Positions 14,920 through 32,199 of a DNA stretch of 34,690 bases are shown piece after piece. The notes beneath the pieces are model-generated. The model did no database searches. It was not told the DNA's origin and saw nothing but the letters and a program-made list of their open reading frames with translations. A program made the translations under genes and the position numbers. Within the stretch, counting starts at the first letter, position 1. Each line of letters starts with the position of its first letter. Source of the stretch: a virus. The DNA lies in the IMG/VR virus record IMGVR_UViG_3300032116_000718, positions 1 through 34,690 of that record; one strand, 5' to 3'.

Positions 14920-15587
14920 TGGAATGGATAGTAAAAGAATACACAGACAAGGTCAACGCAGACCAAGAACTTAAAGAGTATAGGGACTGGATTGAAGCAA
15001 ATGCATTCGGATTCGGGGAAAGATGCTTTATTTGGATGTGGAATGAGATAGTTCAAAAGATGCCTCAAGAGTTCACCTTTATGGAGATTGGAGTCTTTAG
15101 AGGTCAGATTCTCGGATTGATACGGATATTAGCGGATAGACACGGAAAGAAGGTTAGGCGAATAGGGATAACACCTCTTGACACATCGGATGGTCATTGG
15201 GAATCTGACTACGAAGCAGACATTAAGAAACTACATGACACCTTTAAGATTGCCAATGATTATGAAATAATCACATTGGATTCAACTAATCCCGTTGCGG
15301 TGAATCTTGCCTCTCAGAATCCTCCTGATGTACTTTACATTGATGGAGGGCATACCTATGAGGTTGTAATGGCAGACCTCAAGAACTACTTGCCTATTCT
15401 AAAGGTAGGTGGTACACTTGTCATTGATGACTGCAATAACGCAATCCCAATGCCATTTGGTTACTTCGCAGGGATTCAATCGGTATCAAACGCAGTGGAC
15501 CAATTCCTCCCAAGAGAAGGACAAACGGAACAATGGAAGCATGAACTTAACCTGGTACATAACAGAGTATTAACTAAACTAAAATAA
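14916..15587 (+). CDS. Class I SAM-dependent methyltransferase
   Basis: 223 residues. It has the SAM-binding loop FMEIGVFRG (about 55-63) and a DVLYIDGGHTYE motif (about 138-149), then LKVGGTLVIDD, as in the Methyltransf_24 and related sugar or glycan methyltransferases. It sits at the end of the glycosyltransferase cassette, so O-methylation of the added sugar is a reasonable guess. A protein or small-molecule substrate is also possible. Confidence 0.78.
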   Translation: MMEWIVKEYTDKVNADQELKEYRDWIEANAFGFGERCFIWMWNEIVQKMPQEFTFMEIGVFRGQILGLIRILADRHGKKVRRIGITPLDTSDGHWESDYEADIKKLHDTFKIANDYEIITLDSTNPVAVNLASQNPPDVLYIDGGHTYEVVMADLKNYLPILKVGGTLVIDDCNNAIPMPFGYFAGIQSVSNAVDQFLPREGQTEQWKHELNLVHNRVLTKLK

Positions 15588-16816
15588 TGAATCCAATCAC
15601 AGTTAAAATCAGCGAAGTAAAGTCTAACCCGAACAATCCAAGAATTATAAAGGATGATAAGTTCCAAAAGTTAGTCAAGTCAATCAAGGAGTTCCCAGAG
15701 ATGCTTAACATCCGACCAATCGTGGTCAATGCCGATATGGTTGTACTCGGTGGCAATATGCGACTTAGAGCGTGTAAGGAAGCAGGACTTAAAGAGGTAG
15801 CAATAATCAAAGCAGAGGACCTGACAGAGGACCAACAGAAGCAGTTTATTATCAAGGATAATGTCGGGTTTGGAGAATGGGATTGGGAAGACCTTGCGAA
15901 TAATTGGGATGCTGAACAGTTGACAGATTGGGGGTTGGATATACCCGACTTTAAATCTGAAGTCCTTGAAGCAGAAGAAGATGAGTTTGAAGTACCTGAT
16001 GGTGGAATTGATACAGATATCGTTCTTGGGGATTTGTTTGAGATAGGTGAGCATCGTTTACTTTGTGGCGATTCAACAGATAGCGACCAAGTTGCAAAGT
16101 TGATGAACGGAGAGAAGGCAGATATGGCATTTACAAGTCCACCATATAATGCAGGTAAAAGTGAGGCATTGAGTGGTAATACTCACACAACTGACAATAA
16201 ATATAATGAGTACAACGATAATCAAACAAAAGATGCTTATTTAGATTTATTGATAGGATTTACAAATAATGCTTTATTGTTTAGCGAATATTTGATATGC
16301 AATATTCAAAGTTTAGCAGGTAATAAAATTGCATTAATTGAGTATCTTAATGAATATAAGAATCAATTTATTGATGTAGCAATATGGGATAAGGGACACG
16401 GGGCACCTGCAATGGCAGAAAATGTAATGACATCCGCTTGGGAATATATGTTTTTTATTTCATCTAAAGAAAAAGCATCAAGGGCAATACCAAATGCAAA
16501 TTTTAGAGGAACTGTTCCAAATATTTACAGAGGTAAACCAAATAGGAATAATCAATTTTCACACGTTCACGCTGCAACATTCCCAATAGATTTGCCTGAA
16601 TGGGTATTACAATTTACAAATGAAAATAATATTATATTGGACCAATTCTGCGGAACAGGAACAACAATGGTTGCGTCACACCAACTCAAACGCAAGTGCT
16701 ATGGGATGGAACTTGACCCTAAATATTGTCAGGTTATAGTGGATAGGATGATGAAACTTGACCCGACTTTGGAGGTGAAGAGGAACGGGGAGAAGTATAC
16801 TAAAACAATGGACTAA
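15587..16816 (+). CDS. ParB-like/DNA methyltransferase fusion
   Basis: 409 residues. Residues about 1-90 are ParB/Srx-like, with SNPNNPR and LGGNMRLRACKEAG (54-67). The rest is an amino-methyltransferase of beta order: TSPPY (183-187) comes before the SAM motif DQFCGTGTT (352-360). It methylates adenine N6 or cytosine N4; TSPPY does not decide which. GC by hand is about 50% at 15721-15780, 23% at 16201-16260 and 48% at 16741-16800, so the middle, which should recognise the target, looks exchanged. It lies directly before the terminase genes, where such fusions are common. Confidence 0.88.
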   Translation: MNPITVKISEVKSNPNNPRIIKDDKFQKLVKSIKEFPEMLNIRPIVVNADMVVLGGNMRLRACKEAGLKEVAIIKAEDLTEDQQKQFIIKDNVGFGEWDWEDLANNWDAEQLTDWGLDIPDFKSEVLEAEEDEFEVPDGGIDTDIVLGDLFEIGEHRLLCGDSTDSDQVAKLMNGEKADMAFTSPPYNAGKSEALSGNTHTTDNKYNEYNDNQTKDAYLDLLIGFTNNALLFSEYLICNIQSLAGNKIALIEYLNEYKNQFIDVAIWDKGHGAPAMAENVMTSAWEYMFFISSKEKASRAIPNANFRGTVPNIYRGKPNRNNQFSHVHAATFPIDLPEWVLQFTNENNIILDQFCGTGTTMVASHQLKRKCYGMELDPKYCQVIVDRMMKLDPTLEVKRNGEKYTKTMD

Positions 16817-18353: not shown

Positions 18354-18405
18354 TGGGGGGAAGTCGGGGGGAAACTACTTTTTTTAAAATAATCTGCTAA
18401 AAAAG

Positions 18406-18434
18406 TTAGTTATCTAAAATATTTAGTATTTTCG
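18406..18434 (+). promoter_or_regulatory. Candidate Bacteroidota-type promoter
   Basis: TATTTTCG at 18427-18434 matches the -7 consensus TAnnTTTG at seven of eight positions. TTAG at 18406-18409, 17 bases upstream, is a weak match to the -33 element. Transcription would start near 18440, just ahead of the structured RNA. No other gap shows as good a match. Confidence 0.4.
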
Positions 18435-18439
18435 CATAG

Positions 18440-18537
18440 TCAATCCGATTAGGTAGTCTCAGTACATATTCGGGTTTGATTCATGCAACCCGCATAAATT
18501 AGACCCACCTGCTGAGACCAGTGTGGGTTCTTTTTTT
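18440..18537 (+). ncRNA. Candidate pseudoknotted ncRNA
   Basis: About 98 nt between a promoter-like box and an intrinsic terminator, with no coding frame. Three pairings are visible: CGGGTT (18471-18476) with AACCCG (18487-18492); the terminator helix (18503-18511 with 18519-18528); and GTCTCAG (18456-18462), exactly complementary to the terminator's 7-nt loop CTGAGAC (18512-18518). The last pair would form a pseudoknot, or would compete with the terminator during transcription. It is not a tRNA. Start is approximate. Confidence 0.55.
18503..18537 (+). terminator. Intrinsic terminator with complementary loop
   Basis: ACCCAC (18503-18508) pairs with GTGGGT (18523-18528), and CTG (18509-18511) with CAG (18519-18521), with one bulged T. 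The helix is followed by a T-rich tail (18528-18537). The loop CTGAGAC is complementary to 18456-18462. Confidence 0.8.
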
Positions 18538-18542
18538 ACCCT

Positions 18543-18584
18543 AACTTTGGATGACCTGCAAGTAGTTGCCTACCTCTCAAAGTT
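18543..18584 (+). other. Stem-loop AACTTTG/CAAAGTT
   Basis: A perfect 7-bp outer stem (18543-18549 with 18578-18584) encloses a small inner hairpin with two alternative pairings (GCAA with TTGC, or GTAG with CTAC). It lies just beyond the terminator T tract. Its role is unknown. Confidence 0.5.
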
Positions 18585-18613
18585 CTGAATTCAAGGAGTT
18601 TAAATCTGTTAAA

Positions 18614-18645
18614 TGAAAAGAAGGATGTAACTTTTTCCCTTTTCA
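18614..18645 (+). other. Stem-loop TGAAAAG/CTTTTCA
   Basis: A perfect 7-bp stem (18614-18620 with 18639-18645) around an 18-nt loop. It is AT-rich and weaker alone than its neighbours, but it is part of the same series of structures. Confidence 0.4.
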
Positions 18646-18680
18646 GCCGACTAACCCGATTGCCTATGTGACGGAGTAGA

Positions 18681-18732
18681 TGGTCAGTAGTTGTTTCCTA
18701 TTGGGGGTAGGGGGCAACTTCTGTTCTGACCA
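18681..18732 (+). other. Long imperfect hairpin before the tail operon
   Basis: The outer stem TGGTCAG (18681-18687) pairs with CTGACCA (18726-18732). The inner helix of 12 bp (18689-18700 with 18708-18719, three T-G wobbles) ends in a 7-nt loop TTGGGGG. Together that is 19 pairs with small bulges, far more than expected for a random leader. It may be a 5' UTR element of the tail genes, a packaging-site structure or part of a larger RNA. Confidence 0.6.
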
Positions 18733-18808
18733 ACTTCCCTCATAACCTTGTTCGGGAGTAGATTAAGATTACCTTATACACTTAACCACATTTAAACTAT
18801 TTAACATT

Positions 18809-19486
18809 ATGAATTGGTCCAATGTAACAGTCTTCCAATACCAACAGATTAATGAACTCTATGCTAATAGTAAGGACCTTACCGACCTTGATATATCGGT
18901 AAAGGTTGCCTCAATACTAACCAACCAAACGGAGAATCAGATAGATTCACTACCAGTTAAGGAACTTGCACCATTATTGGAATCCATTGCTTTTATTAAT
19001 GAAGAGATTAAACCCGAAGCGGTAAAGGTGCTAAAGATTAATGGCAGAAGGTATAAGTGCGTTTATGATGTGCGGAATATCCCTGCATCAAGGTATATTG
19101 AATCTAAGCACTTTAGTAACGATGTAATGGGTAATCTGCACAAGATAATGGCGTGTATGGTCATTCCTCAAAAGAGGGGATGCTTTGGGTGGAAGGATGA
19201 CAAGTACGATGCAGGTAAACATAGCGACTATGCTCAAGATATGCTTGAAGCACCGATTGTTTCCGTTCTTGGTTCGGTGGTTTTTTTTTATCAAGTATTC
19301 AAACTTTGGATAAAGAATTCAAATGGTTATATGGTCCAACAGATGATGGAGCAGGGAGTGGAGAAGATGAAAGCGGAAGAAGTGCATCAGGTTTTATGCA
19401 CCATTATGGATGGATTTACCAAACCAAACTGGTTGCCGACTTTGAAGGAATCACACTTGACCAAGCATTTAACTTACCTGTCATAA
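18809..19486 (+). CDS. Tail assembly chaperone (gpG-like), zero frame
   Basis: 225 residues, helical. Gene size, position ahead of the tail proteins and tape measure, and an overlapping second frame match the lambda G/T chaperone pair that coats the tape measure during tail assembly. At codon 160 the frame crosses a run of nine T, where a -1 slip would enter the frame ending at 19569. Zero-frame text continues 65 residues more and still looks protein-like (MDGFTKPNWLP). There is no strong sequence motif. Confidence 0.65.
   Translation: MNWSNVTVFQYQQINELYANSKDLTDLDISVKVASILTNQTENQIDSLPVKELAPLLESIAFINEEIKPEAVKVLKINGRRYKCVYDVRNIPASRYIESKHFSNDVMGNLHKIMACMVIPQKRGCFGWKDDKYDAGKHSDYAQDMLEAPIVSVLGSVVFFYQVFKLWIKNSNGYMVQQMMEQGVEKMKAEEVHQVLCTIMDGFTKPNWLPTLKESHLTKHLTYLS
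19282..19288 (+). other. Slippery site for -1 frameshift
   Basis: In the frame of the gene at 18809 the codons read GTT TTT TTT TAT, giving the heptamer T TTT TTT, a standard X XXY YYZ slippery sequence. A slip back by one base gives TTT TTA TCA and continues open to 19569. No clear stimulatory pseudoknot was identified right after it. A sequencing error in the T9 run could mimic this. Confidence 0.55.
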
Positions 19487-19569
19487 ACTTCCTCAATGAC
19501 CTTGCCTACCTTAAAGCGAAGATGGAACATGATAACGAATTAATACGGAAGAGTTATGGCAAAAGTTGA
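19288..19569 (+). CDS. Tail chaperone extension (gpT-like), -1 frame
   Basis: About 93 residues in the -1 frame, to be read as the C-terminal extension of a roughly 253-residue fusion with the gene at 18809. The text (HHYGWIYQTKLVADFEG, then LDQAFNLPVINFLNDLAYL) is protein-like and acidic to amphipathic, as in gpT domains. It overlaps the zero frame for nearly 200 bases. Independent starts at TTG 19306 or ATG 19396 are possible but lack good leaders. It overlaps the next gene by 14 bases. Confidence 0.6.
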   Translation, partial: LSSIQTLDKEFKWLYGPTDDGAGSGEDESGRSASGFMHHYGWIYQTKLVADFEGITLDQAFNLPVINFLNDLAYLKAKMEHDNELIRKSYGKS

Positions 19570-20248
19570 TACGGTTGTAGTAGTAGATGATGCGATAATT
19601 GAATCGGAGGCATTAAAACGTAAAGATTATGCCTCATTAAAGGAATTACCATTCGTTGAGAAGGTAATGATTGCTTATGCTGCAAGATTCATTATTCAGG
19701 TACAGAAAAACTTGATTAATGATAATAAGACCGATACTGGTAGACTTGAAAGGGATATTCAGCAAGGGGACATCATAAAGGCAAACGGGTCTTATCTTAT
19801 AGACATCGGTTATCCTAAAAGTTCAGAGGCAGCGAAATACTATGACTTTGTCAATAAAGGTGTCAAAGGTTTTAAGTCAGGTACACCGAATAGTCCTTAT
19901 CGGTTTAGGTCCGCATATCCTTCTATGAATGGACCAATGGTTACCGCTATCCAAAAATGGGTAAAAAGAAACTCAAAGTTAGCAAGAAGGGAAGACCAAA
20001 GGTATAACCTTTCGGGTCTGCAAAGGAAAAGAAAGTCGGTTTCCGAATTAAACACTGGCAGGACCACTGCTTACCTAATAGCACGGAAGATAAAGCAAAG
20101 AGGTTTACCGAGGACTGGATTCTTTGATGATGCCATTACTCAGGTATTTAATGACCAATTTTATAACAAGATGGCAGAAGCAGTTGGGGGAGATGTGAGG
20201 TTGTACATAAAACAGGCTGCTTCGCTAATTAATGAAGAGAACAAGTAA
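19556..20248 (+). CDS. Tail completion-like protein (HK97 gp10-like)
   Basis: 230 residues. Features of the gp10 and related head-tail joining families are visible in order: TDTGRLERDIQ near the N-terminal third, a strand block (YLIDIGYPKSSEAAKYYDFV), and a late RTGFFDDAI that places a terminal helix. A basic middle (about 140-165) may face DNA. Function as a tail completion or minor tail protein is inferred from those features and neighbours. Confidence 0.55.
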   Translation: MAKVDTVVVVDDAIIESEALKRKDYASLKELPFVEKVMIAYAARFIIQVQKNLINDNKTDTGRLERDIQQGDIIKANGSYLIDIGYPKSSEAAKYYDFVNKGVKGFKSGTPNSPYRFRSAYPSMNGPMVTAIQKWVKRNSKLARREDQRYNLSGLQRKRKSVSELNTGRTTAYLIARKIKQRGLPRTGFFDDAITQVFNDQFYNKMAEAVGGDVRLYIKQAASLINEENK

Positions 20249-20250
20249 TT

Positions 20251-21438
20251 ATGGCAATAACAGTAAATTCAATACCCGAACAATACGCATCCCTTCACGA
20301 TGACCTTTGGTTCGTGGTGGATAGCACAAACAAGGCATCAAGCAATTTTAAGTATGTCTTTGATGTTTATGTAGATGCGGTCTTGGTAGCAAGAATTAAG
20401 CAGTTCCCTGATGTTACAAGCACGAAGGGTATATTTAACGCAGGAAACATTATGCGTAACTATGCTCAATCTTATTTCATACCGAATCCTGCGACTACCC
20501 TATTTAGTGGTTCAAATGATAATATTTATAAGCAATACACCATAAAATATGGGGAAGAGTATGGAGGAACTACCTACACCAATCTCCTTGAGCAGACCTA
20601 TGTAGCATTCAATTTCTATTATCCCGACTTTTATAATCCTGCTCAATCTCCTACCTATTTCAAGTCATATATTAATGAATGGTTGACAAATAGGGATTTG
20701 AGCAATGTGGAATGTGCATTTACCGATAAGTTGCATATCGGTTATATGTTTGCAAGTGGTGTGACTACAAATGTCTACCCATCGGTGCAACTTTACAACG
20801 AGAACGGGACTACAAGCGGAAGTGCTTTAACAACCGCAATAGACCCACAGGAATCATTTAGTCTGCTTGATATCTCACCAACTGCCATCAATGACTGGTA
20901 TGGTTCAACAGTAATCCCACAATCTGCATACTCATACGGCATTAAATTGCACAATGGGGTAGGATTCGGGGATGAGGTAAGGGTTAAACTTGTTTGCAAT
21001 CCTAACTACTCACCAATAGCATTGCACTTCCTAAATCAGTTAGGAGGTTACGATACAATGCACTTCAGATTGGTAAACAAAGAAGCAAGGAACGTGGAAT
21101 CAAAGCAGTACGAAGGCAGTAAATATAGGTACAACGCTTCTGCTACCGCAATGCGGTCCTATGATGATTATAATAGAATCAACCCAGGTGCAACCAAGTA
21201 TGTGGTTGAGCATACCACAATGTATAAACTGAGAAGTAATTACTTAAATGTAAAAGATTACAACTGGTTGGCAGAGTTAATCCAATCACCCGAGGTCTAC
21301 TTTGAGCAAGGAGGGTACTATTATCCCGTGGTCACTATGACAAGTAATTGGGAAGAGAAAAAGAGGATAGCAGATAAGATGTTCAATCTTGAACTTGATG
21401 TGCAGATTGCCAATAAAAAATATAGTCAATTCCGATGA
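20251..21438 (+). CDS. Tail structural protein (unknown family)
   Basis: 395 residues, beta-rich, Tyr/Asn-rich, with no signal peptide. It starts with a WFVVDSTNKASSNFKYVF strand pair of a type seen in Bacteroidota phage tail operons. It overlaps the next tail gene by 4 bases. Likely a tail or baseplate component; no enzymatic motif. Confidence 0.6.
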   Translation: MAITVNSIPEQYASLHDDLWFVVDSTNKASSNFKYVFDVYVDAVLVARIKQFPDVTSTKGIFNAGNIMRNYAQSYFIPNPATTLFSGSNDNIYKQYTIKYGEEYGGTTYTNLLEQTYVAFNFYYPDFYNPAQSPTYFKSYINEWLTNRDLSNVECAFTDKLHIGYMFASGVTTNVYPSVQLYNENGTTSGSALTTAIDPQESFSLLDISPTAINDWYGSTVIPQSAYSYGIKLHNGVGFGDEVRVKLVCNPNYSPIALHFLNQLGGYDTMHFRLVNKEARNVESKQYEGSKYRYNASATAMRSYDDYNRINPGATKYVVEHTTMYKLRSNYLNVKDYNWLAELIQSPEVYFEQGGYYYPVVTMTSNWEEKKRIADKMFNLELDVQIANKKYSQFR

Positions 21439-23462
21439 GGACTGAGATATACATTGATAATTACAGACTTGACTTGACAAAGGAAATCTCCGCAGAGTTT
21501 ACCTATGCAATAGATGAGATTCAAGACTTTGCAACAAGGAACACCTCATTTAGTAAAACCATAATCCTCCCTGGCAATGAAACAAATAATAAGTTATTCG
21601 GTAATATATTTGAGTTCGGAAACTCCAATTTATACAATCCAGCAATCCCAAATGTGGGTTACAACTTCAATGCAACCAAGTCGGTTCCATGTATTATCTT
21701 GGTAGATAAGATACAAATATTTAAGGGTGTACTTAGGATGCTTGAAATCATCATTGATGATAGAAGCATTGAGTATGAAGTTTGTGTGTTCGGTGAGTTA
21801 GGTGGTTTTATCAACGCACTTGGAAATAGTAAGTTAGAAGACATTAACTTTGGGATTGCGGACCAAACGTGGAACGCTACCACGATTGCAAATAGTTGGG
21901 ATAACATTAGCGGGACAGGTGTTTACTATCCTCTCATTGATAACGGGGTAGTATCAACTAATAAAGTAGACTTTTCTTTTGATGCCTTCCGACCTGCTTT
22001 GTTTGTTAAGCAATACCTAACTAAGATACTTGATGGGTCGGGTTACACCTATGATTTCCCTTTACTTAGTACGGCATTAATGAATCGGTTGGTAATACCT
22101 AACAATCAAAAGACATTAACAAAAAATGATACAACTCAATTCATCGCAACTCCGAACAATGCAAACTATCCAATAGCATCAAAAGTTGAATTTACTGCAA
22201 CACAACTTGGACCATTCCTTGTTAATGTTGCAAATAATACTTTCACTTACAATAGTGCAACCACTACAACAATCAATTTCCAAGTGGTTGTTAGCGGTGC
22301 AATCATTGACCCGAATACCACTTTCTTTGATATTGCATTGAGAAAAAACGGGGTAAACATTGCATCTCAAGGTTATGTTCCAAACACATTTGATTACATA
22401 TTTACTGCCGATTTGTCCGTAAACAATATTTCTGTAACAAACACAGACTTCTTTGATATTTTTGTTATATCGGATGCAGGAGGTGGATTTGGTTATGACA
22501 TAACTGGAGATACAATATTGGTGGGAACAGATTTAATTGAGCAAGTAAATATAAGTTATGGAGATACTATTGTAGTAAACGATACAATACCTAAGGGAAT
22601 CTTCCAAAAAGATTTCTTTGCATCCATTGTCAAGATGTTTAACCTCTATGTTTATGAAGACAAGTTGGTAGAGAAGAAACTTATTATAAAACCATTTATT
22701 GACTTTTACGATGGCACTAAGATAGACTGGACCGACAAAGTGGACCGAGGAAGTGTTATGAGGTTGAAACCGATGAGTGAGTTTACTGCACGTTATTACG
22801 ATTACAAGTACAAGCAAGACAATGACTTTTATGCGGAGAACTACCGAAAGAAGTACAATGAGGGATATGGTGATTTGATTTATGATAGTGAGAATGAGTT
22901 TGTTAAGGAAGTTGATAGCACCGAGTTGATTTTTGCATCTACCATACTTTATGAAAAGACTGGAACCGATAAGATTTATTCTGTCATTTATAAACTATCC
23001 AACGAGAACACGAAAGAAGATAAGATGGATTCCGTTATTAGAATCCTTCAAGCAAAGAAGATAACGGGTAGGGCATCTTGGAAACTTAACCATACATCGG
23101 GTCATGATACATACACCGCATACGGATATGCAGGACACTTTGATGACCCATATAACCCACAATCGGATATTAATTGGGGAGCAACTAAGGAACTATTTTA
23201 TAATGCATCATCGGTAACCGCAGCGAATCTGTTTAATGGGTATTGGTCCGAGTACATTGCAGAGATAACCGATAAGGATAGCAAGTTGCTCACCTGTTCA
23301 TTAAAGTTGAATGAGGTGGACATTTATAACCTTGATTTTAGCAAACTGATATACATTGATGGTTCACTTTGGCGGTTGAATAAAGTCTTGGATTATAACC
23401 CTATGGACTTTAACGTGACAAAGGTGGAACTTCTTAAGGTAATTGAATTAACATACGTTTAA
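21435..23462 (+). CDS. Large tail/baseplate protein with inserted beta domain
   Basis: 675 residues. The N-terminal 190 residues (YIDNYRLDL, then RNTSFSKTIILPGN) resemble distal-tail or baseplate hub openings in this phage group. Residues about 240-370 are a Thr/Asn-rich beta region encoded by AT-richer DNA (about 22110-22560), which looks like an inserted Ig-like or carbohydrate-binding domain. The C-terminal half returns to the usual composition and is Tyr/Asp-rich. It probably links the tube to the fibres. It comes just before the tape measure. Confidence 0.6.
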   Translation: MRTEIYIDNYRLDLTKEISAEFTYAIDEIQDFATRNTSFSKTIILPGNETNNKLFGNIFEFGNSNLYNPAIPNVGYNFNATKSVPCIILVDKIQIFKGVLRMLEIIIDDRSIEYEVCVFGELGGFINALGNSKLEDINFGIADQTWNATTIANSWDNISGTGVYYPLIDNGVVSTNKVDFSFDAFRPALFVKQYLTKILDGSGYTYDFPLLSTALMNRLVIPNNQKTLTKNDTTQFIATPNNANYPIASKVEFTATQLGPFLVNVANNTFTYNSATTTTINFQVVVSGAIIDPNTTFFDIALRKNGVNIASQGYVPNTFDYIFTADLSVNNISVTNTDFFDIFVISDAGGGFGYDITGDTILVGTDLIEQVNISYGDTIVVNDTIPKGIFQKDFFASIVKMFNLYVYEDKLVEKKLIIKPFIDFYDGTKIDWTDKVDRGSVMRLKPMSEFTARYYDYKYKQDNDFYAENYRKKYNEGYGDLIYDSENEFVKEVDSTELIFASTILYEKTGTDKIYSVIYKLSNENTKEDKMDSVIRILQAKKITGRASWKLNHTSGHDTYTAYGYAGHFDDPYNPQSDINWGATKELFYNASSVTAANLFNGYWSEYIAEITDKDSKLLTCSLKLNEVDIYNLDFSKLIYIDGSLWRLNKVLDYNPMDFNVTKVELLKVIELTYV

Positions 23463-23463
23463 T

Positions 23464-25113
23464 ATGGCAGAAGAAATAATTGGCATCAAGGTCCAAGTTG
23501 ATGCGAGTGATGTAGGTAAATCGGTTGGTTCATTAAAGAAGCAACTTAGGGAAGCACAGAATGAAGTCACGGCATTGTCTGAAAAGTTCGGTGCGACATC
23601 AAAAGAAGCAATCAATGCAGCAAAGAAGGCAGCACAATTAAAGGATGCCATCGGTGATGCGAAAGCATTAACGGATGCATTTAATCCTGATGCAAAGTTC
23701 AAAGCATTAACGGCATCTTTGTCGGGTGTTGCAGGTGGATTCGCTGCCTTGCAAGGTGCAGTTGGATTGTTCGGAAATCAAGCAGAAGCAGTTGAGAAAA
23801 CATTGTTAAAGGTTCAATCTGCTTTAGCATTGTCGCAGGGTTTACAGGCGGTTGGCGAGAGCATAGACTCATTCAAGCAATTAGGTGCGGTTGTAAAGAC
23901 AGGCGTTTCTAATGCCTTTGGAACGCTTCGTAGTGCTATTATATCTACTGGGATAGGTGCATTAGTAGTTGGTCTTGGTTTATTGATTGCCAACTTTGAA
24001 ACAGTTAAAAAAGTAGTCCTTAACTTCATCCCTGGTCTTGGCAAACTTGCCGACTTTGTAGGTAACCTTGTAAATAAAGTAACCGATTTTGTTGGAATAA
24101 CAACAGAGGCAGGAAGGGCAACTGCAAAACTTATAGAAGATAATAATAAGGCAATTAAGAATAGCGAGAGATTTCTTGAACTAAATGGCGATAAATACGA
24201 TGAATACACGCAACGTAAAATAAAAGCAAACATTGAATTTTTAAAAAAGCAAAATGAGTTTAAAAATGATGAGCAATTATCAGAAGTACAAAAAATTGCT
24301 TTCATTAAACAAGCAAGGGAAAAAGCAAATAGAGAGATAGCAAAAGCAGATGCAGATAGAATTGAAGCATCAAAAAAAGTAAAAAAAGCGGAATTAACAC
24401 AAGAGCAAAAAGAAAACATACAACGGGAAAAGGATTTTAAAGAAGGTCAAGAGTTAATTAGAAGAGAAAAAGAACTTGCTGCGAATCTTACAAAGACTCA
24501 AGTTTTAGGCATAACCGCAGCAGGAAAGGATGCACTTATTCAAACGCAAGTGGTTGCAAAGGGTGTTTCTGATGCCATATTGGTAACTGCTCAACAACAA
24601 GCAGATGCTAAGAAGCAATTAACGGATTACGAAAAGAAACTTGAGCAAGAAAAATTTGATGCTCAATTAAATCTTGCATCTCAATCCTTGTCTATCATTG
24701 GCGGTCTTGTAGACCAAAATAGTGCAGCAGGTAAGGCGATTGCGGTAACTCAAGCAATCATAAACACTTACCAGGGTGCATCTAAGGCATTAGCACAAGG
24801 AGGTATCTTTGGACCTGTGGCAGCAGCAGCGACCATTGCAGCAGGATTGATAAACGTAAAAAAGATTATTAGTACCAAGATACCATCAGCAAAAGGCACT
24901 GGGAATGTTGCCGATTCGGGAGGTGGTTCAATGTCAATGTCTGCTGCACCAATCTCACCATCTGCACCAATTCAAAACACAGTTACCTCATTAAGTCAGC
25001 AATCCATTAACCAAATGGGGTCAGCAGCAGGTAGAGCATACGTTGTGGAATCTGACATCACTAACCAACAAGAAAAGATAATAAGAATAAACCGAGCAGC
25101 AAGACTTGGGTAA
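23464..25113 (+). CDS. Tape measure protein
   Basis: 549 residues. The N-terminus is a long helical coiled coil with Ala/Lys runs (GSLKKQLREAQNEVTALS), then hydrophobic segments at about 160-185 (ALVVGLGLLIANF) and 197-215, then another long charged helix (about 230-400) and an Ala/Gly-rich tail. This is the standard tape measure layout, with the hydrophobic part thought to enter the host membrane during DNA injection. At 549 residues it predicts a rather short tail. The coil encoded by about 24140-24440 is AT-richer than its surroundings. Confidence 0.85.
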   Translation: MAEEIIGIKVQVDASDVGKSVGSLKKQLREAQNEVTALSEKFGATSKEAINAAKKAAQLKDAIGDAKALTDAFNPDAKFKALTASLSGVAGGFAALQGAVGLFGNQAEAVEKTLLKVQSALALSQGLQAVGESIDSFKQLGAVVKTGVSNAFGTLRSAIISTGIGALVVGLGLLIANFETVKKVVLNFIPGLGKLADFVGNLVNKVTDFVGITTEAGRATAKLIEDNNKAIKNSERFLELNGDKYDEYTQRKIKANIEFLKKQNEFKNDEQLSEVQKIAFIKQAREKANREIAKADADRIEASKKVKKAELTQEQKENIQREKDFKEGQELIRREKELAANLTKTQVLGITAAGKDALIQTQVVAKGVSDAILVTAQQQADAKKQLTDYEKKLEQEKFDAQLNLASQSLSIIGGLVDQNSAAGKAIAVTQAIINTYQGASKALAQGGIFGPVAAAATIAAGLINVKKIISTKIPSAKGTGNVADSGGGSMSMSAAPISPSAPIQNTVTSLSQQSINQMGSAAGRAYVVESDITNQQEKIIRINRAARLG

Positions 25114-25137
25114 CAATAGTTTATAAAAAATACAAAA

Positions 25138-26034
25138 ATGGAAAAGAATATACCAATTTTTAACTTAGAAATAACCAATGACCTTGAAGATGATGTGGAA
25201 GTGGATGTCATTAGTTTAGTTGATAGACCTGCCATAGAGCGGTCCTTCCTTGCCTTTACTGAAGATGAGTTTGCTGAATCCTACACAGACTATCCCGAAA
25301 GTGCAAAGAACAACGCACAGAGGGCATTGGATTGGGCAGAGAAAAACGGATGGGGAGAATGTGGCACGGAGGTTGGAAAGATAAGGGCAAACCAAATCGC
25401 AAAGGGAGAACCGATTTCACGTGAAACAATCGCAAGAATTAGCGGATTCAAAAGGCATCAACAGAATAAAGATGTTCCCTATTCCGAAGGATGCGGTGGT
25501 CTTATGTGGGATGCTTGGGGTGGTACTTCCATGATTGAATGGTCAAGTAACAAACTCAAAAAACTTGACAGGCAGAACTTTGTCATCCAAGATGAGGACC
25601 AACAAATCATTAGCGGTCCATTAATGTTAGCAGATACTCCTATTTACCGAAATGACCACAACGGGGAATATTATGTAGTCTTTACAAAGGAAACGATAAA
25701 AAAGATTGCACAGAGGTATTTTAAAAAAGGATATCAAGCAAACGTAAACTTGATGCACGATTCGGGTCAATCCGTTGAAGGTGTGACAATGTTTGAATCA
25801 TTTATCAGCGACAAGGTTAGGGGAATCTACCCGATGAAAGGATTTGAGGATGTACCCGATGGGTCTTGGTTCGGTTCTTTTAAGGTAGACAATCCCGAAG
25901 TATGGGCAGAGATTAAGGCAGGGAATGTAAGAGGATTCTCCGTAGAAGGTCAATTTAATTACAGAAAGACTGGTGATAAAAAGATTGAGCAACTTTGGGA
26001 AAATGTCCTAAAAGTGCTATCTATGGTTAGTTAA
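25138..26034 (+). CDS. Head maturation protease (XkdF-like) with inserted domain
   Basis: 298 residues. The protease part spans the N-terminal 45 and residues about 146-290; the likely catalytic pair is His207 (NLMHDSG) and Ser268 (RGFSVEG). Between them in sequence, residues about 50-145 are an extra domain (ALDWAEKNGWGECG, GKIRANQIAKGEPIS, GFKRHQQN) that recurs in other phage head proteins but has no assigned role. The enzyme would trim scaffold and capsid during prohead maturation. It lies right after the tape measure and is followed by a terminator. Confidence 0.75.
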   Translation: MEKNIPIFNLEITNDLEDDVEVDVISLVDRPAIERSFLAFTEDEFAESYTDYPESAKNNAQRALDWAEKNGWGECGTEVGKIRANQIAKGEPISRETIARISGFKRHQQNKDVPYSEGCGGLMWDAWGGTSMIEWSSNKLKKLDRQNFVIQDEDQQIISGPLMLADTPIYRNDHNGEYYVVFTKETIKKIAQRYFKKGYQANVNLMHDSGQSVEGVTMFESFISDKVRGIYPMKGFEDVPDGSWFGSFKVDNPEVWAEIKAGNVRGFSVEGQFNYRKTGDKKIEQLWENVLKVLSMVS

Positions 26035-26062
26035 GATTAGTACCATAAATTAATTTGATTAC

Positions 26063-26091
26063 GGCGGGTGTTTCCACACCTGCCTTTTTTT
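26063..26091 (+). terminator. Intrinsic terminator after the protease gene
   Basis: A 9-bp stem (26063-26071 with 26076-26084, one G-T wobble) with a TTCC loop is followed by seven T. It separates the protease from the scaffold gene. The rest of the gap to 26136 has no clear promoter. Confidence 0.88.
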
Positions 26092-26136
26092 GTATATGGT
26101 ACATTGGTAAATGCTCACTATTTATTGCTAAAAGTT

Positions 26137-26727
26137 ATGATGACTACTTTAGAAGCAATCAATAAGATTAAACAAATGTTTGCAGAAGCAGGAGAATTGC
26201 CATCTGCAATGCCTCTTCAATCTATGGCGGAATATACGCTAAAGAGTGGTGCAAAGGTTATGATTGATAAGTTTGAAGTTGGTGGTAAGGTTACTCTTGT
26301 AGATGAGGGTGGAAACGAAGTTCCTGCTCCTGTTGGTGACCATGAGTTGATTGATGGTTCTGTAATTACTCTTGATGAGAACTCAATCATCACCGCAATT
26401 AAAGTCCCTGAAGTTGAACTCCCTGAAGTTCCCGAAGTTGAGATTTCTGTTGAATCTAAGAAGGTAGAAGAGGACATGATGAAGAAGAAGATTGAAGAGA
26501 TGCAGAAGCAACTGGATGAGATTAAGATGGCATACGATGCCAAACTTGCCTCTCAAGAAGCAAAGTTTAGCAAGGGCATGAGTGACATTTCTGATGTTTT
26601 GGTTCAACTTTTGAACACACCATCTGCAAATGCAACTGAAGCACCGAAAGAAAAGTTTAATCAGCACATTGAAAAAAAGGAAGATAAGATTAGCAGATTC
26701 CTTGATTTCGCAAAGTCAATTAAGTAA
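26137..26727 (+). CDS. Scaffold protein
   Basis: 196 residues from ATG 26137 (a second ATG follows at 26140); upstream ATG 26068 lies in the terminator stem. Residues about 90-115 are Val/Pro/Glu repeats (PEVELPEVPEVE), then a coiled coil (about 117-150) and a basic C-terminus (KISRFLDFAKSIK) that would bind capsid. This acidic-coil-basic layout and the position between protease and major capsid fit a scaffold that is removed after assembly. Confidence 0.72.
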   Translation: MMTTLEAINKIKQMFAEAGELPSAMPLQSMAEYTLKSGAKVMIDKFEVGGKVTLVDEGGNEVPAPVGDHELIDGSVITLDENSIITAIKVPEVELPEVPEVEISVESKKVEEDMMKKKIEEMQKQLDEIKMAYDAKLASQEAKFSKGMSDISDVLVQLLNTPSANATEAPKEKFNQHIEKKEDKISRFLDFAKSIK

Positions 26728-26757
26728 AAATTTCTCAAACAATAAAAATTAAATAAA

Positions 26758-27708
26758 ATGAGTTTTTCAGTAGGAACATTGGCAGCCTATACAAAAGAGA
26801 ACGAGCAATTACTTGTTGCCTCTTCTGTACTTGGTAGCAAAACCGCCTCTTTAATTAAAGAGCAAGGTAACGTGATGGTAGGTGTTAAGTCTGCCGAAAC
26901 CATCAACATCATGGACACAGATGCTATTTTCCAAGATGGTTCATCTTGCGGATTCAACGCATCAGGTCTGACTTCTTTCACACAAAGGACTGTAACAGTT
27001 GGAAAAATTAAGGTTAACGAAGCATTGTGCTTGAAAGACCTTGAAGCAAAGTACTTGCAGAAAGCACTTCCTGCTGGTTCTATGTATGATTCAATGATTT
27101 ATGCTGAAGAGTATTCTAAGCGTAAAACAGAGAAAATCTCTTCTCAACTTGAGAAAGCACTTTGGCAAGGTAACACATCAAGCGTTGACGTAAACTTGAA
27201 CAAGTTTACAGGTTTGATTTCTTTGATTACTTCAGCAGGTGCATCAGTTGTAAATGCCAATAGCGTAGCACTTCACGGAGTAGTTGAAACCGCCATTACC
27301 GATGCAAACGTAGTTAGCATTTTTGATGATATCTACAAAGCAATTCCTGCTCAAGTAGTTGACAAGGATGATATGGTTATCTTCTGCGGTATGGACACAT
27401 TTAGGACCTACACTGTAAAGTTGAAGTCTTCTAACTTGTTCCATTACAAATACGATGAGGCTGCAAATGGTCAGTTTTTCCTTCCAGGTACAAACGTGCG
27501 TGTAATCGCAGTACAAGGTTTGAATGGTACAAATGACATCGTTGCTGCAAGGATTTCTAACTTCTTCATCGGTACAGACCTTTTGAACGAAGAGGAAAGA
27601 TTTGAAATCTTCTACGCTAAGGAAGCAGACCAAGTTCGTTTTGTTTCTGAGTTCAAAATGGGAATTAACTTTGCTTTCCCTGATGAGATTGTCAAGTTCT
27701 TCATTTAA
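26758..27708 (+). CDS. Major capsid protein (HK97-like)
   Basis: 316 residues, a common size for this family in Bacteroidota phages. It has no cysteine-rich or enzymatic motif. The central part (SRKTEKISSQLEKALWQGN style helix near 120-145) reads as the spine helix, and the C-terminus (DQVRFVSEFKMGINFAF) as the P-domain strands. It lies after the scaffold and before a strong terminator, so high-level expression of a defined mRNA is expected. Fold assignment is from layout and context. Confidence 0.82.
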   Translation: MSFSVGTLAAYTKENEQLLVASSVLGSKTASLIKEQGNVMVGVKSAETINIMDTDAIFQDGSSCGFNASGLTSFTQRTVTVGKIKVNEALCLKDLEAKYLQKALPAGSMYDSMIYAEEYSKRKTEKISSQLEKALWQGNTSSVDVNLNKFTGLISLITSAGASVVNANSVALHGVVETAITDANVVSIFDDIYKAIPAQVVDKDDMVIFCGMDTFRTYTVKLKSSNLFHYKYDEAANGQFFLPGTNVRVIAVQGLNGTNDIVAARISNFFIGTDLLNEEERFEIFYAKEADQVRFVSEFKMGINFAFPDEIVKFFI

Positions 27709-27719
27709 ATAACATTGAT

Positions 27720-27755
27720 GGTGAGGGGTGGTATCCATCCCTTGCCTTCATTTTA
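27720..27755 (+). terminator. Intrinsic terminator after the major capsid gene
   Basis: A 12-bp stem (27720-27731 with 27735-27746, three wobbles) is followed by TTCATTTT. It closes the capsid message. An ATG at 27728 in frame with the next gene lies in this stem and is unlikely to be used. Confidence 0.8.
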
Positions 27756-27766
27756 AATTTTATAAT

Positions 27767-28279
27767 ATGCCGTGTGCTTTAACTCAAGGATATGTACTGG
27801 ACTGTAAAGAGTCCATAGGTGGTATCAAAGCGGTCTGGTTCATTCCATTCGCTGATGTAACTACGATAACAGAGGCATCAGGCGTTGTTACTACTATTAC
27901 AAAGTCAGCAGGCAAGGTGTTCTACAAGTACCAACTTGTAAAGCAAACCTCTTCACTTACCGAGAATATCACTGCCTCTGTTGAGAATGGCACTGTATTC
28001 TATGCACAAGAATTATCTATCATCCTCAATAAACTTCAAGCAAGTACAAGGAACGAAATTTTGCTTCTTGCAAAAAACAATCTCCTTGCAGTGGTTCAAG
28101 ATGGTAACGATAAATATTGGTTGCTTGGTAAGGTAAATGGTGCTGATTTGACTGGTGGCAATGGTGCAACTGGTGTTGCCTATGGAGACAGGAATGGTTA
28201 TACTTTGACCTTTACAGGCAATGAACCTGCACTTGCTCCCGAGGTTTCAAGTTCAATAATTGCAGGTCTTACTGCGTAA
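27767..28279 (+). CDS. Probable major tail tube or head-decoration protein
   Basis: 170 residues from ATG 27767 (MPCALTQGYVLDC), beta-rich and Gly/Thr-rich, ending PEVSSSIIAGLTA. Similar text (ALTQGY, then ASGVVT, KYQLVK and GDRNGYTLTF) is common just after the capsid gene in Bacteroidota phages. It is framed by two terminators, suggesting it is needed in quantity. Tail tube is preferred over decoration, but sequence alone does not decide. Confidence 0.6.
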   Translation: MPCALTQGYVLDCKESIGGIKAVWFIPFADVTTITEASGVVTTITKSAGKVFYKYQLVKQTSSLTENITASVENGTVFYAQELSIILNKLQASTRNEILLLAKNNLLAVVQDGNDKYWLLGKVNGADLTGGNGATGVAYGDRNGYTLTFTGNEPALAPEVSSSIIAGLTA

Positions 28280-28303
28280 ATAGGAAGGTTTAGAATTGAG
28301 TAG

Positions 28304-28331
28304 GGCATCCATATCGGATGCCTTTCTTTTT
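28304..28331 (+). terminator. Intrinsic terminator
   Basis: A perfect 7-bp stem, GGCATCC (28304-28310) with GGATGCC (28316-28322), has loop ATATC and is followed by TTTCTTTTT. It is the third terminator of the head module. Confidence 0.88.
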
Positions 28332-28365
28332 GGGTAAAAGTTAAGGGATTACCTATTTAGACATA

Positions 28366-28743
28366 ATGATACAACTCACACAAGGAGCAACGGAGTTTAT
28401 TTACCTAACATTAACGGAGAAGCAGACACTTGCCTCACCGAATTACTTGTTCCGTTTTGTCAATAGGACCACACGGGATGAGGTTGCTTTTGTGCTTTTG
28501 TTTGCTCTTGATGTATCACCTTTCAAGGATAGGTACAATAAATTTAGCATCAAAGTACCGAAGTATTTTGGATTGGGTAACATTGGAGAGTGGTTGTATT
28601 ATGTATATGAGCAAACAAGTGCATACAATATAGACTATACCCAAGCAACGGGATTGCTTGAAGAGGGAATAATGAAACTGTCACCATCAACCACTTTTGA
28701 ATATACGCAGCACGAGGTTGACAATACATATATAACAAGATGA
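28366..28743 (+). CDS. Conserved virion-module protein (unknown)
   Basis: 125 residues, beta-rich. The opening MIQLTQGATEFIYLTLTEK and the later GEWLYYVYEQ and TGLLEEGIMKL are seen in small proteins near portal genes of this phage group. It may be a head or tail accessory. It overlaps the portal gene by ATGA. Confidence 0.6.
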   Translation: MIQLTQGATEFIYLTLTEKQTLASPNYLFRFVNRTTRDEVAFVLLFALDVSPFKDRYNKFSIKVPKYFGLGNIGEWLYYVYEQTSAYNIDYTQATGLLEEGIMKLSPSTTFEYTQHEVDNTYITR

Positions 28744-30728
28744 ATGATTTAGTAATACTTAATTTCCAAGAAGCAAGGCAACCCGAATATCGGGAGAAGA
28801 GGGGCAAGGGGTATATTGAGTTCGGTGAAAAGAACGATTACCCTAACTATCTTTTATCACTTTACAATAAAAGTGCAAAGCATAACGCTATTGTCAAGGG
28901 CAAGGTTAATTACATTATCGGAAACGGATGGAAGAGTGATGAGGTAGACCCTATTGCGGACCAATTCATTGCACAACCTAATCAGTTTGAATCTTTAAAC
29001 GATTTAACAAGAAAGGTATCTATTGATATTGAAATCTTCGGTGGTGCCTACCTTGAGGTGATTTGGTCCGTAACGGGTGGACAGTTAACCGATGTCTTAC
29101 ACATTGACTATACTAAAATAAGGTCCAACACGGATAATACTCAATTTTGGTATAAGAAAGATTGGAATGAGAGAAAGGATGAGTTAATCCCTATGATGGC
29201 ATTTAACACGAAGGTCAGACAAGGGAAGCAGATACTTTACATTAAGGAATATAGACCAGGTTTAGATACTTATGCTCTACCAGGTTATATGGGTGCATTG
29301 AACTATATTGAATCTGATATAGAAGTCAGCAGACACGTTCTTGGCAATGCCCAAACGGGATTCTCTGCATCCAAACTTATTACACTTCCCAATGGTGAAC
29401 CTTCTCCCGATGAGAAGCGTAACATTGAAAGAAGGTTTACGGATAGATTTAGCGGTAGTGATGGCAAGAAGTTTATTTTATCGTTTACTACTGACCCTGC
29501 ACGAAAACCAATTATTGAGGACCTCGGAGCAAGTGATATTACAAAAGAGGACTTCACGAGGGTTGATTTAATTATTCAGAATAATCTTTTCGCAGGTCAT
29601 CAAATTACATCACCAAGTCTTTTCGGTATTGCCGAACCTGGTCAGTTGGGAAGCAGAACGCAGATAAGGGATTCGTATGAGATATTCAAGAACACTTATG
29701 TAAATGATAAGCAGCAGTTCCTTGAATCAATATTTAATCAACTTGCTACCTTAAAGGGTGCGACTTCTGAGATTACGATTGTACCTGTTGAACCTATCGG
29801 ATTTGAATTAAGTGAACAAGCACTATTGCAGGTTGCTCCTAAAGAGTGGTTATTGGAAAAGGCAGGTATTGATGTTTCTAAATATCAACCAACTGCGGCA
29901 ACTCAACCAAGCATTAATCAAGAACAAGTTGAGGTAAACGATAATTTGAAGAATCTAAGTGGTAGACAATACCAACACTTGATGAGGGTGATTAGGCAAT
30001 TCTCACAGGGTAAGATATCCAAAGAGATTGCAAGTACAATGCTCAAGTCGGGTCTTGGAATGACCGACAATGAGGTTAATGCAATGCTTGGAATAGATGA
30101 TGACCCAATGACAGAAGACCTTAATTTTTCTGCACTTGATGAGGACACTGTTATAGGCTTATTCAGAGAGGTTGGTGAACCGAAAGAGGATTATAACATA
30201 ATTCAATCTAAAGCGGTTTTTAGCAGTCGGGATGCGTTTGCAGAGGGTGATTTGATAGACAAGACACTTGATAAGCAAATCCTTGCCTTGATTGATAAGG
30301 ATAGGAAGATAAGCATTGATGACATTGCAAAGGCGGTAAGGAAAAGCAGAGAGGTAGTACAAGGTCGGTTGAGTTATTTGGTTGAATCGGGTGCAGTAAG
30401 TTATGACCCAAAGATTGAGGAACGTAAACTCACCAAACCATTGAGCAAGTTGGTTGATGATATGGATGTAACAACCTTTGAGGTAAAGTATTCCTATGAG
30501 TGGAAACCGATTGTACCAAGTTCACAAAGAGATACTCCTGCACATCCTTCAAGGACATTTTGCAGAAAGTTAATATCAGAGGATAGACTTTGGAGCAGAA
30601 GCGGAATAGAGTTACTTAGTGCAAGACTTGGTTACTCCGTATTTGATAGGGGCGGTGGTTGGTGGGGAGATTCACCAAGTTGCAGACACGAATGGAGAAG
30701 GAACGTAGTAGTTAAAAAGAAAAAATAA
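28740..30728 (+). CDS. Portal protein with C-terminal extension
   Basis: 662 residues. The first 360 or so read as a phage portal (YIIGNGWKSDE, SIDIEIFGGAYLEVIW, GFSASKLITLPNGEPS, then FAGHQITSPSLFGI). Residues about 500-560 form a winged-helix-like unit (KDRKISIDDIAKAVRKS). The last 80 residues hold PAHPSRTFCRKLIS and a GGGWWGDSPSCRHEWRR block, resembling a minor-head (MuF-like) tail. A separate MuF gene was not found, so the two roles may be fused. It lies well after the capsid gene, not next to terL. Confidence 0.78.
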   Translation: MNDLVILNFQEARQPEYREKRGKGYIEFGEKNDYPNYLLSLYNKSAKHNAIVKGKVNYIIGNGWKSDEVDPIADQFIAQPNQFESLNDLTRKVSIDIEIFGGAYLEVIWSVTGGQLTDVLHIDYTKIRSNTDNTQFWYKKDWNERKDELIPMMAFNTKVRQGKQILYIKEYRPGLDTYALPGYMGALNYIESDIEVSRHVLGNAQTGFSASKLITLPNGEPSPDEKRNIERRFTDRFSGSDGKKFILSFTTDPARKPIIEDLGASDITKEDFTRVDLIIQNNLFAGHQITSPSLFGIAEPGQLGSRTQIRDSYEIFKNTYVNDKQQFLESIFNQLATLKGATSEITIVPVEPIGFELSEQALLQVAPKEWLLEKAGIDVSKYQPTAATQPSINQEQVEVNDNLKNLSGRQYQHLMRVIRQFSQGKISKEIASTMLKSGLGMTDNEVNAMLGIDDDPMTEDLNFSALDEDTVIGLFREVGEPKEDYNIIQSKAVFSSRDAFAEGDLIDKTLDKQILALIDKDRKISIDDIAKAVRKSREVVQGRLSYLVESGAVSYDPKIEERKLTKPLSKLVDDMDVTTFEVKYSYEWKPIVPSSQRDTPAHPSRTFCRKLISEDRLWSRSGIELLSARLGYSVFDRGGGWWGDSPSCRHEWRRNVVVKKKK

Positions 30729-31321
30729 TGAGCAGAAATATACTTTTTATTTCAGTTGATACGATAAAGGACAGAACAGGTTTGCACGTTAACGTAGACC
30801 CTAAGTTGGTCTTTCCTGACATCCTTTATGCCCAAGATGCATACATCCTCCCTGCACTTGGAACTGCATTGTATGAGAAGTTACAAACGGGTATTGAGTG
30901 CGGTGATTTGAACTGTGATGAAGAAACTTTGTTGAATACCTACATAACACCTTGTTTAGTTTACTATGTTATGAGTGAACTCCCAATGGCATTGTCTTAT
31001 CAATTCTACAATAAAGGAGTAGTACGGAAGTCGGGTGATAATCAAACCGAACCGAGTGCATCAGAATTGGCAGATGTTGCCAATCGTTATGGAGCAAGGG
31101 CAGAGTTTTACAAGCAAAGGTTGATTAAGTTCTTAAAGCAAGAATCTCAAGCAAGTGCTAAATATCCCGAATACATAAACCCTGGCACTGGAGTTGATAC
31201 CATTGTTCCCGACAATGATGCCTACACCACTACAATATGGTTGGGAGATTATGACTGCGGAAGGTATAAAACATTTGAAGAAAAATATCAAGGAGACATA
31301 AATCGTTGTTGTGGCGAATAA
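30728..31321 (+). CDS. Head completion protein (DUF6712-like)
   Basis: 197 residues, helical, with VDPKLVFPDILYAQDAYI near the start and YYVMSELPMALSY in the middle. These are landmarks of the head-completion-type proteins found after portal or MuF in Bacteroidota phages. The C-terminus carries three Cys in short order (YDCGRYK, RCCGE). It would join the portal ring. The start overlaps the portal stop. Confidence 0.65.
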   Translation: MSRNILFISVDTIKDRTGLHVNVDPKLVFPDILYAQDAYILPALGTALYEKLQTGIECGDLNCDEETLLNTYITPCLVYYVMSELPMALSYQFYNKGVVRKSGDNQTEPSASELADVANRYGARAEFYKQRLIKFLKQESQASAKYPEYINPGTGVDTIVPDNDAYTTTIWLGDYDCGRYKTFEEKYQGDINRCCGE

Positions 31322-31469
31322 AACATACACTAAAAAGAACCAAGAGAAACTCCGTGTTTATCTTGAAAAAATAAAAAAGGATGACCCTAAACAATCTGAT
31401 AAAGACAATAGAAGACTTGGGAAATGCCCATCAACAAATCAAGACAACCTTTTACGGAAACGCTTTTGA
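31311..31469 (+). CDS. Possible small basic protein (GTG start)
   Basis: 52 residues from GTG 31311, basic and Lys-rich (NKTYTKKNQEKLRVYLEK). It fills the 59-base gap before the next gene and then overlaps it for 89 bases in another frame. The N-terminal half looks protein-like and the C-terminal half does not. It could be a real small gene or only the leader of the next one. Confidence 0.35.
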   Translation: MANKTYTKKNQEKLRVYLEKIKKDDPKQSDKDNRRLGKCPSTNQDNLLRKRF

Positions 31470-31827
31470 TTTTTTGAGTAAGGGTACGGACAATGTCTAT
31501 CCTGCTTTATTCTTTGACCTAACGGGTGCATCCATCAATGGTAAAAGTTCAACTATCAACTTCACCATGTTTTTCTGTGATAGGGTACTTCCCGAGCAAT
31601 CAAATGAGCAAGAGGTTCTATCGGACCAATTACTCACTGCTCAAGATATTATTGCACAGTTGCATTATAACGATTACGATTTCGTTCTTCAAGATGCGGT
31701 TACGCTTGATTTCTTTACGGAAGACACACCCGAATACTTAGCAGGAGTTAGTGCAACTATTGCACTTGATTTACCATACTTACAGAATAGGTGTGAAGTT
31801 CCAACAGACTACACTTATCCATCATAA
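31381..31827 (+). CDS. Tail terminator or connector protein
   Basis: 148 residues, alpha/beta. The start (MTLNNLIKTIEDLGNAH) and the conserved-looking VYPALFFDL, then VLSDQLLTAQDI, fit the tail-completion/terminator class that caps the tail tube. It follows the head completion gene, as expected for the last connector. No enzymatic motif. Confidence 0.62.
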   Translation: MTLNNLIKTIEDLGNAHQQIKTTFYGNAFDFLSKGTDNVYPALFFDLTGASINGKSSTINFTMFFCDRVLPEQSNEQEVLSDQLLTAQDIIAQLHYNDYDFVLQDAVTLDFFTEDTPEYLAGVSATIALDLPYLQNRCEVPTDYTYPS

Positions 31828-31848
31828 ACCTATTTAAAGAAAAAGAAA

Positions 31849-32196
31849 ATGGCATCAGATTTCAGACCAGGGAAACTTGATATTCAAATTTGGAGAAATG
31901 ACACTTGGCAGCAGGTGTTTACTCTTTTGGCAGATACTACACCAATAAACTTATCAGGTGCAACAGTTTATATTCAGGTCCGCAAAGGGTGTGCAGGTAC
32001 TCTTGCATTGACTTTGACTAATGGAAGCGGTGTAACTATCGGAGGTGTGAGCAATAACCAAATCACAGTAAACAAGTTGGTTAATATAGACAAGGGAAAT
32101 TATGTGTGGGATATGCAGGTTACTTTTACAGACTTGACTGTTAAGACCTACCTTGAAGGTGATTTTATTGTGTATGATGATGTAACTAAACCATAG
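31849..32196 (+). CDS. BppU-like baseplate upper protein
   Basis: 115 residues, all beta. The text (IQIWRNDTWQQVFTL, LSGATVYIQVRKG, then GNYVWDMQVTFTD and TYLEGDFIVYDDVT) closely follows the N-terminal BppU domain that carries receptor-binding proteins in siphophage baseplates. It is separated from the fibre gene by 3 bases, so the two probably assemble together. Confidence 0.78.
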   Translation: MASDFRPGKLDIQIWRNDTWQQVFTLLADTTPINLSGATVYIQVRKGCAGTLALTLTNGSGVTIGGVSNNQITVNKLVNIDKGNYVWDMQVTFTDLTVKTYLEGDFIVYDDVTKP

Positions 32197-32199
32197 AAG

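Follow-up and report, generated by a model that had tools for sequence, protein, structure and literature searches.

What is the role of a short RNA encoded behind terL in a phage, when the loop of its own terminator hairpin is complementary to a segment farther upstream in the same RNA? This question is raised by positions 18440-18537 of a 34,690-base virus record, the whole of which is called the window here and provides the coordinates used below. A first-pass annotation had read the stretch as a small independent transcript in which the two segments pair, either as a pseudoknot or as a switch. The transcription unit and its surroundings comprise the following features.

18406-18409, plus strand: TTAG, a weak candidate for a -33 box.
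18427-18434, plus strand: -7 promoter box TATTTTCG, with one mismatch to the Bacteroidota sigma-A consensus TAnnTTTG.
18439-18537, plus strand: the RNA element (ncRNA1) of ∼98 nt, reaching from the inferred transcription start through the T tract, based on alignment A1 (41 distinct copies), structure counts and 61 IMG/VR contigs.
18542-18549, plus strand: possible second -7 box TAACTTTG before the module.
18552-18767, plus strand: structured non-coding module of type A (ncRNA2), with a 21-sequence alignment and 49 predicted pairs, nine of which show double-sided changes.

The element was found in 52 IMG/VR contigs using a pattern built on its conserved ends and in 61 using a relaxed pattern, and a covariance-model search gave one strong copy per contig. 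Most of the 61 contigs belong to the phage group of the window (∼35 kb); the remainder, fragments or contigs no longer than 64 kb, have almost no proteins in common with the window and constitute a second (50-60-kb) group. Alignment A1 contains the 41 distinct copies that align cleanly. Judged by sequence comparison, the element is a real and previously undescribed RNA family of Bacteroidota phages of freshwater type. It is filed under no known family, as first supposed: in Rfam 15 no family reached the gathering threshold for the window, and relaxed E-values for the element, its relatives and the modules gave below-threshold matches only. The isolated-phage records of INPHARED contained no DNA match beyond chance to the window or to L103, a contig of the second group, and the covariance model found no true match in host chromosomes (395 Bacteroidota and 398 same-order genomes) under strict filters that may miss weak relatives. 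Several candidates were discarded on reading: one weak host-chromosome match (L142) is a terminator-like hairpin only, the weak model matches L135-L138 in relatives contain no element, and the pattern matches L143 and L144 sit in apparent coding sequence. The window contains no tRNA or tmRNA.

In flavobacteria, the sigma-A -7 box TAnnTTTG lies at -12 to -5 (PMC9723704). A box of this type, ending four bases 5' of the element, occurs at the same distance in 52 of 53 loci with one mismatch or none, and it is exact in 28/36 copies of the window group and 16/17 of the other group, 15/17 of which also have a -33 TTTG-like box. Because the -7 box sits at -12 to -5, the first conserved base, the G at 18439, would be position +1. 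At the other end, the terminator stem (18502-18511 with 18519-18529) is followed by T7 at 18531-18537, and every aligned copy retains the U tract. A generic promoter and terminator scan picked neither the promoter box of the element nor its terminator; both are conserved in homologues. The promoter-like box and T tract seen at first pass are thus borne out, and their conservation supports a putative small independent transcription unit.

Behind the element, and oriented like it, comes a module of 215-400 nt that contains no long reading frame; at least five sequence types (A-E) of this module were distinguished, which look unrelated. Types B-E occur downstream of the element, for example, in L012, L028, L094 and L123; covariation has been shown for type A, the type of the window, only. 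The type-A copy of the window is not unusually stable by itself (z = -1.2). In scans for the modules with four patterns (A, B/D, C and E), the element lay just upstream at every locus but one, which is cut off by the contig end. The modules have no Rfam match; their presence suggests that further unrecognised structured RNAs exist in Bacteroidota phages. In two units (L093 and L128) a tRNA-like sequence lies between the element and the module, with an acceptor arm, a T arm and a long insert in the anticodon region; ARAGORN calls no tRNA there.

The structure of the element was resolved into the following parts, in which cells are counted over the alignment.

18440-18479, plus strand: hairpin 1 (P1), with 5' arm 18440-18455 and 3' arm 18463-18479; 96.5% of cells paired, three pairs with double-sided changes.
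18456-18462, plus strand: loop L1, GTCTCAG, complementary to L3; 7/7 pairs with double-sided changes, complementary in 51/51 distinct copies.
18483-18495, plus strand: small hairpin P2 with an AACCC loop; the pairs at columns 45-68, 46-67 and 57-64 covary.
18499-18506, plus strand: segment b, TTAGACCC; 326/328 cells paired with the alternative partner.
18502-18537, plus strand: intrinsic terminator hairpin and T7 tract; stem 99.1% paired, three pairs with double-sided changes.
18512-18518, plus strand: terminator loop L3, CTGAGAC; 7/7 loop-loop pairs with double-sided changes, complementary in 51/51 distinct copies.

The two 7-nt segments are exact reverse complements, and CTGAGAC is the complete apical loop of a terminator hairpin that carries T7 3' of its stem and is conserved in every aligned homologue. 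As a single sequence, the 98-nt segment folds more stably than its shuffles (z = -3.7, with 1/200 shuffles as good). Over the 41 copies, 97.7% of the cells of the named structure are paired and 16 pairs show double-sided changes; cells with such changes number 133, compared with 37 in shuffles (0/500), and the covariation score of P1, P2, the terminator and the loop-loop helix together is 0.295, compared with 0.110 for shuffled alignments (0/500). The loop-loop helix is both the most variable and the best supported helix, with 98.6% of cells paired, changes on both sides in all seven pairs (0/500 shuffles) and 18 different loop pairs among the 41 aligned copies. Furthermore, in every one of the 51 distinct copies 6 nt or more of the hairpin-1 loop are perfectly complementary to the terminator region, and loop length covaries, a 6-nt loop 1 being accompanied by a 6-nt terminator loop. 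The comparison of homologues that was proposed at first pass has therefore favoured the pairing: the 7+7 complementarity is preserved while its sequence changes.

Other pairings fared less well. The separate hairpin that had been placed between the two segments (18471-18492, CGGGTT/AACCCG), in which the 3' arm of hairpin 1 would pair with the AACCC loop as a third pairing, has 90.7% of its cells paired but no double-sided changes; it is kept as a possibility only, and P2 at 18483-18495 is better supported. A helix P0 between the 5' end and the segment 3' of the T tract is not claimed, since several copies of the window group form it only weakly, although it is strong in the 50-60-kb group. Resemblance of L3 to an anticodon loop, judged by eye, is inconsistent at position 33.

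The turnover of the loops was followed in 26 unit pairs whose modules are no more than 3% divergent. Of these, 22 differ in their loop pair, and mean divergence over the 26 decreases from the loop (0.32) through the rest of the hairpin-1 apex (0.26), the P2 segment (0.21) and the promoter spacer (0.10) to the module (0.016). Loop pairs differ even between phages with an identical neighbouring RNA module, yet stay complementary; in L130 and L155 the downstream 223 nt are identical and the loop pairs are different. The element, with its loops first, changes faster than its flanks, which fits both selection for diversity and recombination. The hypervariability of the loops is weakened as proof of diversifying selection, since P2 and the rest of hairpin 1 also evolve fast. 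The same fast divergence beside nearly identical modules could be taken to indicate an ordinary terminator in neutral compensatory drift, the complementarity only stabilising the 3' end and the diversity of the loops being meaningless. However, this explanation is very improbable: perfect complementarity of at least 6 nt is kept in all 51 copies across no fewer than 18 sequence pairs, loop pairs differ between units whose modules are up to 100% identical (as in L130/L155 and the 22 close pairs) and an alternative pairing of the stems is retained.

This alternative pairing follows from the fact that hairpin 1 is the reverse complement of the terminator hairpin in its stem as well as in its loop. 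The 5' arm of hairpin 1 (a, AAUCCG) pairs with the 3' arm of the terminator (b', UGGGUU) in 246/246 cells, and its 3' arm (a', GGGUUUGA) is paired in 326/328 cells with the region that extends to the terminator 5' arm (b, UURRACCC). Segment b, TTAGACCC, contributes its 3' part to the terminator 5' arm in one fold, and the whole of b pairs with GGGTTTGA (18472-18479) in the other. Since a can pair equally well with b', and a' with b, each hairpin is the antisense of the other. Fold 1 would thus consist of P1 (5'-a L1 a'), P2 and the terminator (b L3 b') with its U tract, leaving the loops free to kiss, and fold 2 would be a single rod composed of a.b', L1.L3 and a'.b, without a terminator.

The average energy gap between the best terminator fold and the best fold containing the nested loop helix is 0.8 ± 2.9 kcal/mol, and in 32/41 copies it stays within 3 kcal/mol. 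Of the 41 natural copies, 12 have a fold that beats the terminator fold by more than 1 kcal/mol, compared with 8/370 when terminator loops are swapped between copies. In addition, column heterozygosity is 0.027 in the columns with two partners (20/24 invariant), 0.160 in those belonging to P1 or the terminator only and 0.369 in the loops. Such frozen two-partner columns match the prediction for a strand-exchange switch, but columns may be invariant for other reasons as well. The second fold rests on the retention of pairing and on the energies, because neither of the alternative helices (a.b' and a'.b) has double-sided changes, their invariance being neutral, and because the loop pairing fits a kissing complex equally well. 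Conserved, mutually exclusive terminator and antiterminator folds, as in an attenuator, are found here with invariant antiterminator stems and with covariation in the loop helix only. Both pairing schemes are retained alongside the conserved promoter box, terminator and loop pairing, and for an undescribed RNA family of phages the evolutionary evidence for a loop-loop interaction and two conserved folds is unusually clean. Pairing of the loops, whether as a kissing complex or pseudoknot or as a switch, is supported, and the switch gains most from the existence of two conserved, mutually exclusive and near-isoenergetic folds.

If the two folds are physical states, the element most likely works as a bistable transcription attenuator, a reading to which we give a probability of about 0.5 and which is drawn from sequence and predicted energies. 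The controlled output would probably be the second structured RNA and the gene behind it. A TAnnTTTG box between the terminator and the module is present in 17/36 window-group copies and 0/17 copies of the 50-60-kb group. Because of its absence in the latter group, read-through from the promoter of the element or from one upstream is the obvious route to the module, and the module is probably reached by read-through in at least this one group; this is what chiefly favours attenuation over a stand-alone RNA. However, the box past the terminator in about half of the window-group copies means that the module may have its own promoter there, promoters farther upstream could also transcribe it, and a simple terminator with a kissing loop also fits the covariation.

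A rival explanation is a stand-alone small regulatory RNA: the T tract would always stop transcription, the kiss of L1 and L3 would lock a compact shape, and one of the loops or the AACCC loop would act on a host or phage target. Its own promoter at a conserved fixed distance, its strong conserved terminator and its compact conserved structure suit this explanation, as do the protein genes alongside, which differ between the phage groups and so offer no fixed gene partner. It is nevertheless considered unlikely, since a structured module always lies 3' of the element, without a recognisable promoter of its own in one phage group, and since a purely structural kiss needs no cross-complementarity of the stems.

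The genomic setting was examined in 80 loci with a related terL. The element lies downstream of terL in many close relatives, sometimes behind an inserted gene, whereas in L006 (a 33.2-kb contig with a 97% identical terL), L025 and L026 the site that separates terL from the next gene is short and empty, and most other relatives are without the element. When the complete contigs of 20 relatives with no element at terL were searched with a covariance model, the matches were all weak and none was convincing on reading. In the second group the element is found beside other genes than in the window group: in L103 and L108 the unit lies between a gene for a 616-aa helicase/ATPase-like protein and terL, in L110 and L123 a terL-like gene is also downstream, and in L092, L094 and L095 the unit is near genes for dNMP kinase-like and ERF-type annealing protein-like products (neighbour names in this group are readings of the sequence by eye and not database matches). 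The large-terminase-like protein of L103 is a distant (about 27%) relative of those of Flavobacterium 'elemo' and Cellulophaga phages.

These observations bear on two roles named at first pass. As an attenuator of the tail operon, the element is suitably placed in the window group, where it precedes the operon at 18809-34443; in other phages it is followed by other genes. A packaging-related RNA tied to terL is disfavoured by the same differences in neighbours, and an essential one is unlikely owing to the empty sites and the lack of a convincing copy in the 20 contigs, which may be incomplete. A related proposal is that of a self-assembling RNA, in which L1 of one copy kisses L3 of the next to form rings or chains that serve as a scaffold or in packaging, as in phi29 pRNA or ROOL/GOLLD. 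Two apical loops of equal length, fully complementary, free in sequence and fixed in pairing are the pattern of the interlocking loops of pRNA (PMC5340915) and of the intermolecular kissing loops of ROOL (PMC12286853), and in the window group the element sits between terL and the next late gene. This proposal appears improbable, however, for an accessory element that is not beside terL in the second phage group and for which an intramolecular rod is near-isoenergetic.

Some further features of these genomes were recorded. The site behind terL (18354-18808 in the window, and the same site in L004, L005, L008, L011, L013 and L021) resembles an insertion hot spot, at which relatives carry short genes with their own TAnnTTTG-type promoters or, by eye, HNH-endonuclease-like genes. 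Genes for tRNAs lie within a few kilobases of the element in L090 (Ala), L094 (Trp), L105 (Trp) and L013 (Gly). In the window, 15587-16816 encodes a fusion-like protein matching ParB-like and DNA methyltransferase PHROG families. Two regions of a Pollutibacter soli genome (L082 and L083) encode a terL 60-61% identical to that of the window, and no element was found in them; given these relatives, the phage group of the window probably has a temperate branch.

For the bistable attenuator, the following order of events may be envisaged. L1 would grip L3 once L3 leaves the polymerase and before b' exists, and strand exchange would then compete with closure of the terminator, so that either an RNA of ∼98 nt is released or transcription reads through into the structured module and the gene. 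Given that the element is antisense to itself, natural candidates for shifting this balance would be released copies or a loop-binding factor. A more specific and tentative version, suggested by the complementarity, is a self-antisense attenuator with private specificity, in which the released 98-nt RNA binds a nascent copy in trans and sets its own termination. If this were true, the RNA would gauge its own dose, in the manner of a plasmid copy-number control brought together in a single transcript, and co-infecting relatives would be prevented from regulating one another by the diversification of the paired loops, which would amount to 'incompatibility groups' of phages or RNA-based superinfection exclusion. 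The question that this opens is whether phages control their own transcription, or shield it, through allele-specific RNA-RNA pairing.

Among known systems, the trpB motif (Rfam RF04312) has a similar layout of hairpin, linker and terminator, but its weak match (29.5 bits, E = 0.041) is far below the gathering score of 59 and is not counted as one. The put RNA of HK022, compared by description, is likewise a phage RNA with a cis effect on termination (PMC9378689), but acts on later pauses and terminators, whereas the element holds its own terminator. ROOL, a phage RNA with covarying intermolecular kissing loops (PMC12286853), and GOLLD resemble the element as phage-encoded structured RNAs without a known protein partner, and the tRNA-like insert in two units here adds to the likeness; however, they are much longer RNAs, and their covariance models matched neither the element nor the modules, even at relaxed E-values. 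The pRNAs of the phi29 family have two complementary interlocking loops that differ in sequence between phages (PMC5340915), and complementary loops of free sequence are found in the element as well. Unlike pRNA, which is not matched by the element in Rfam, the element is accessory, as far as the empty sites in contigs that may be incomplete indicate, rather than present throughout its phage lineage; it occurs in single copy, is not always near terL, and has an attached terminator and other helices.

Kissing loops also serve in plasmid antisense RNA control, for example, in RNAI/RNAII of ColE1. In such plasmid pairs the sense and antisense RNAs come from opposite strands of one region, whereas both hairpins and loops of the element lie on one strand of one unit and one transcript, and no replication gene is regularly found behind it. 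The RNA1/repA leader system of pSA564 nevertheless shares with the element kissing apical loops of 6-7 nt, a terminator hairpin that doubles as a kissing hairpin and mutually exclusive ON and OFF folds of the leader, and in that plasmid an altered kissing loop leads to a higher copy number and weaker incompatibility (PMC8129170).
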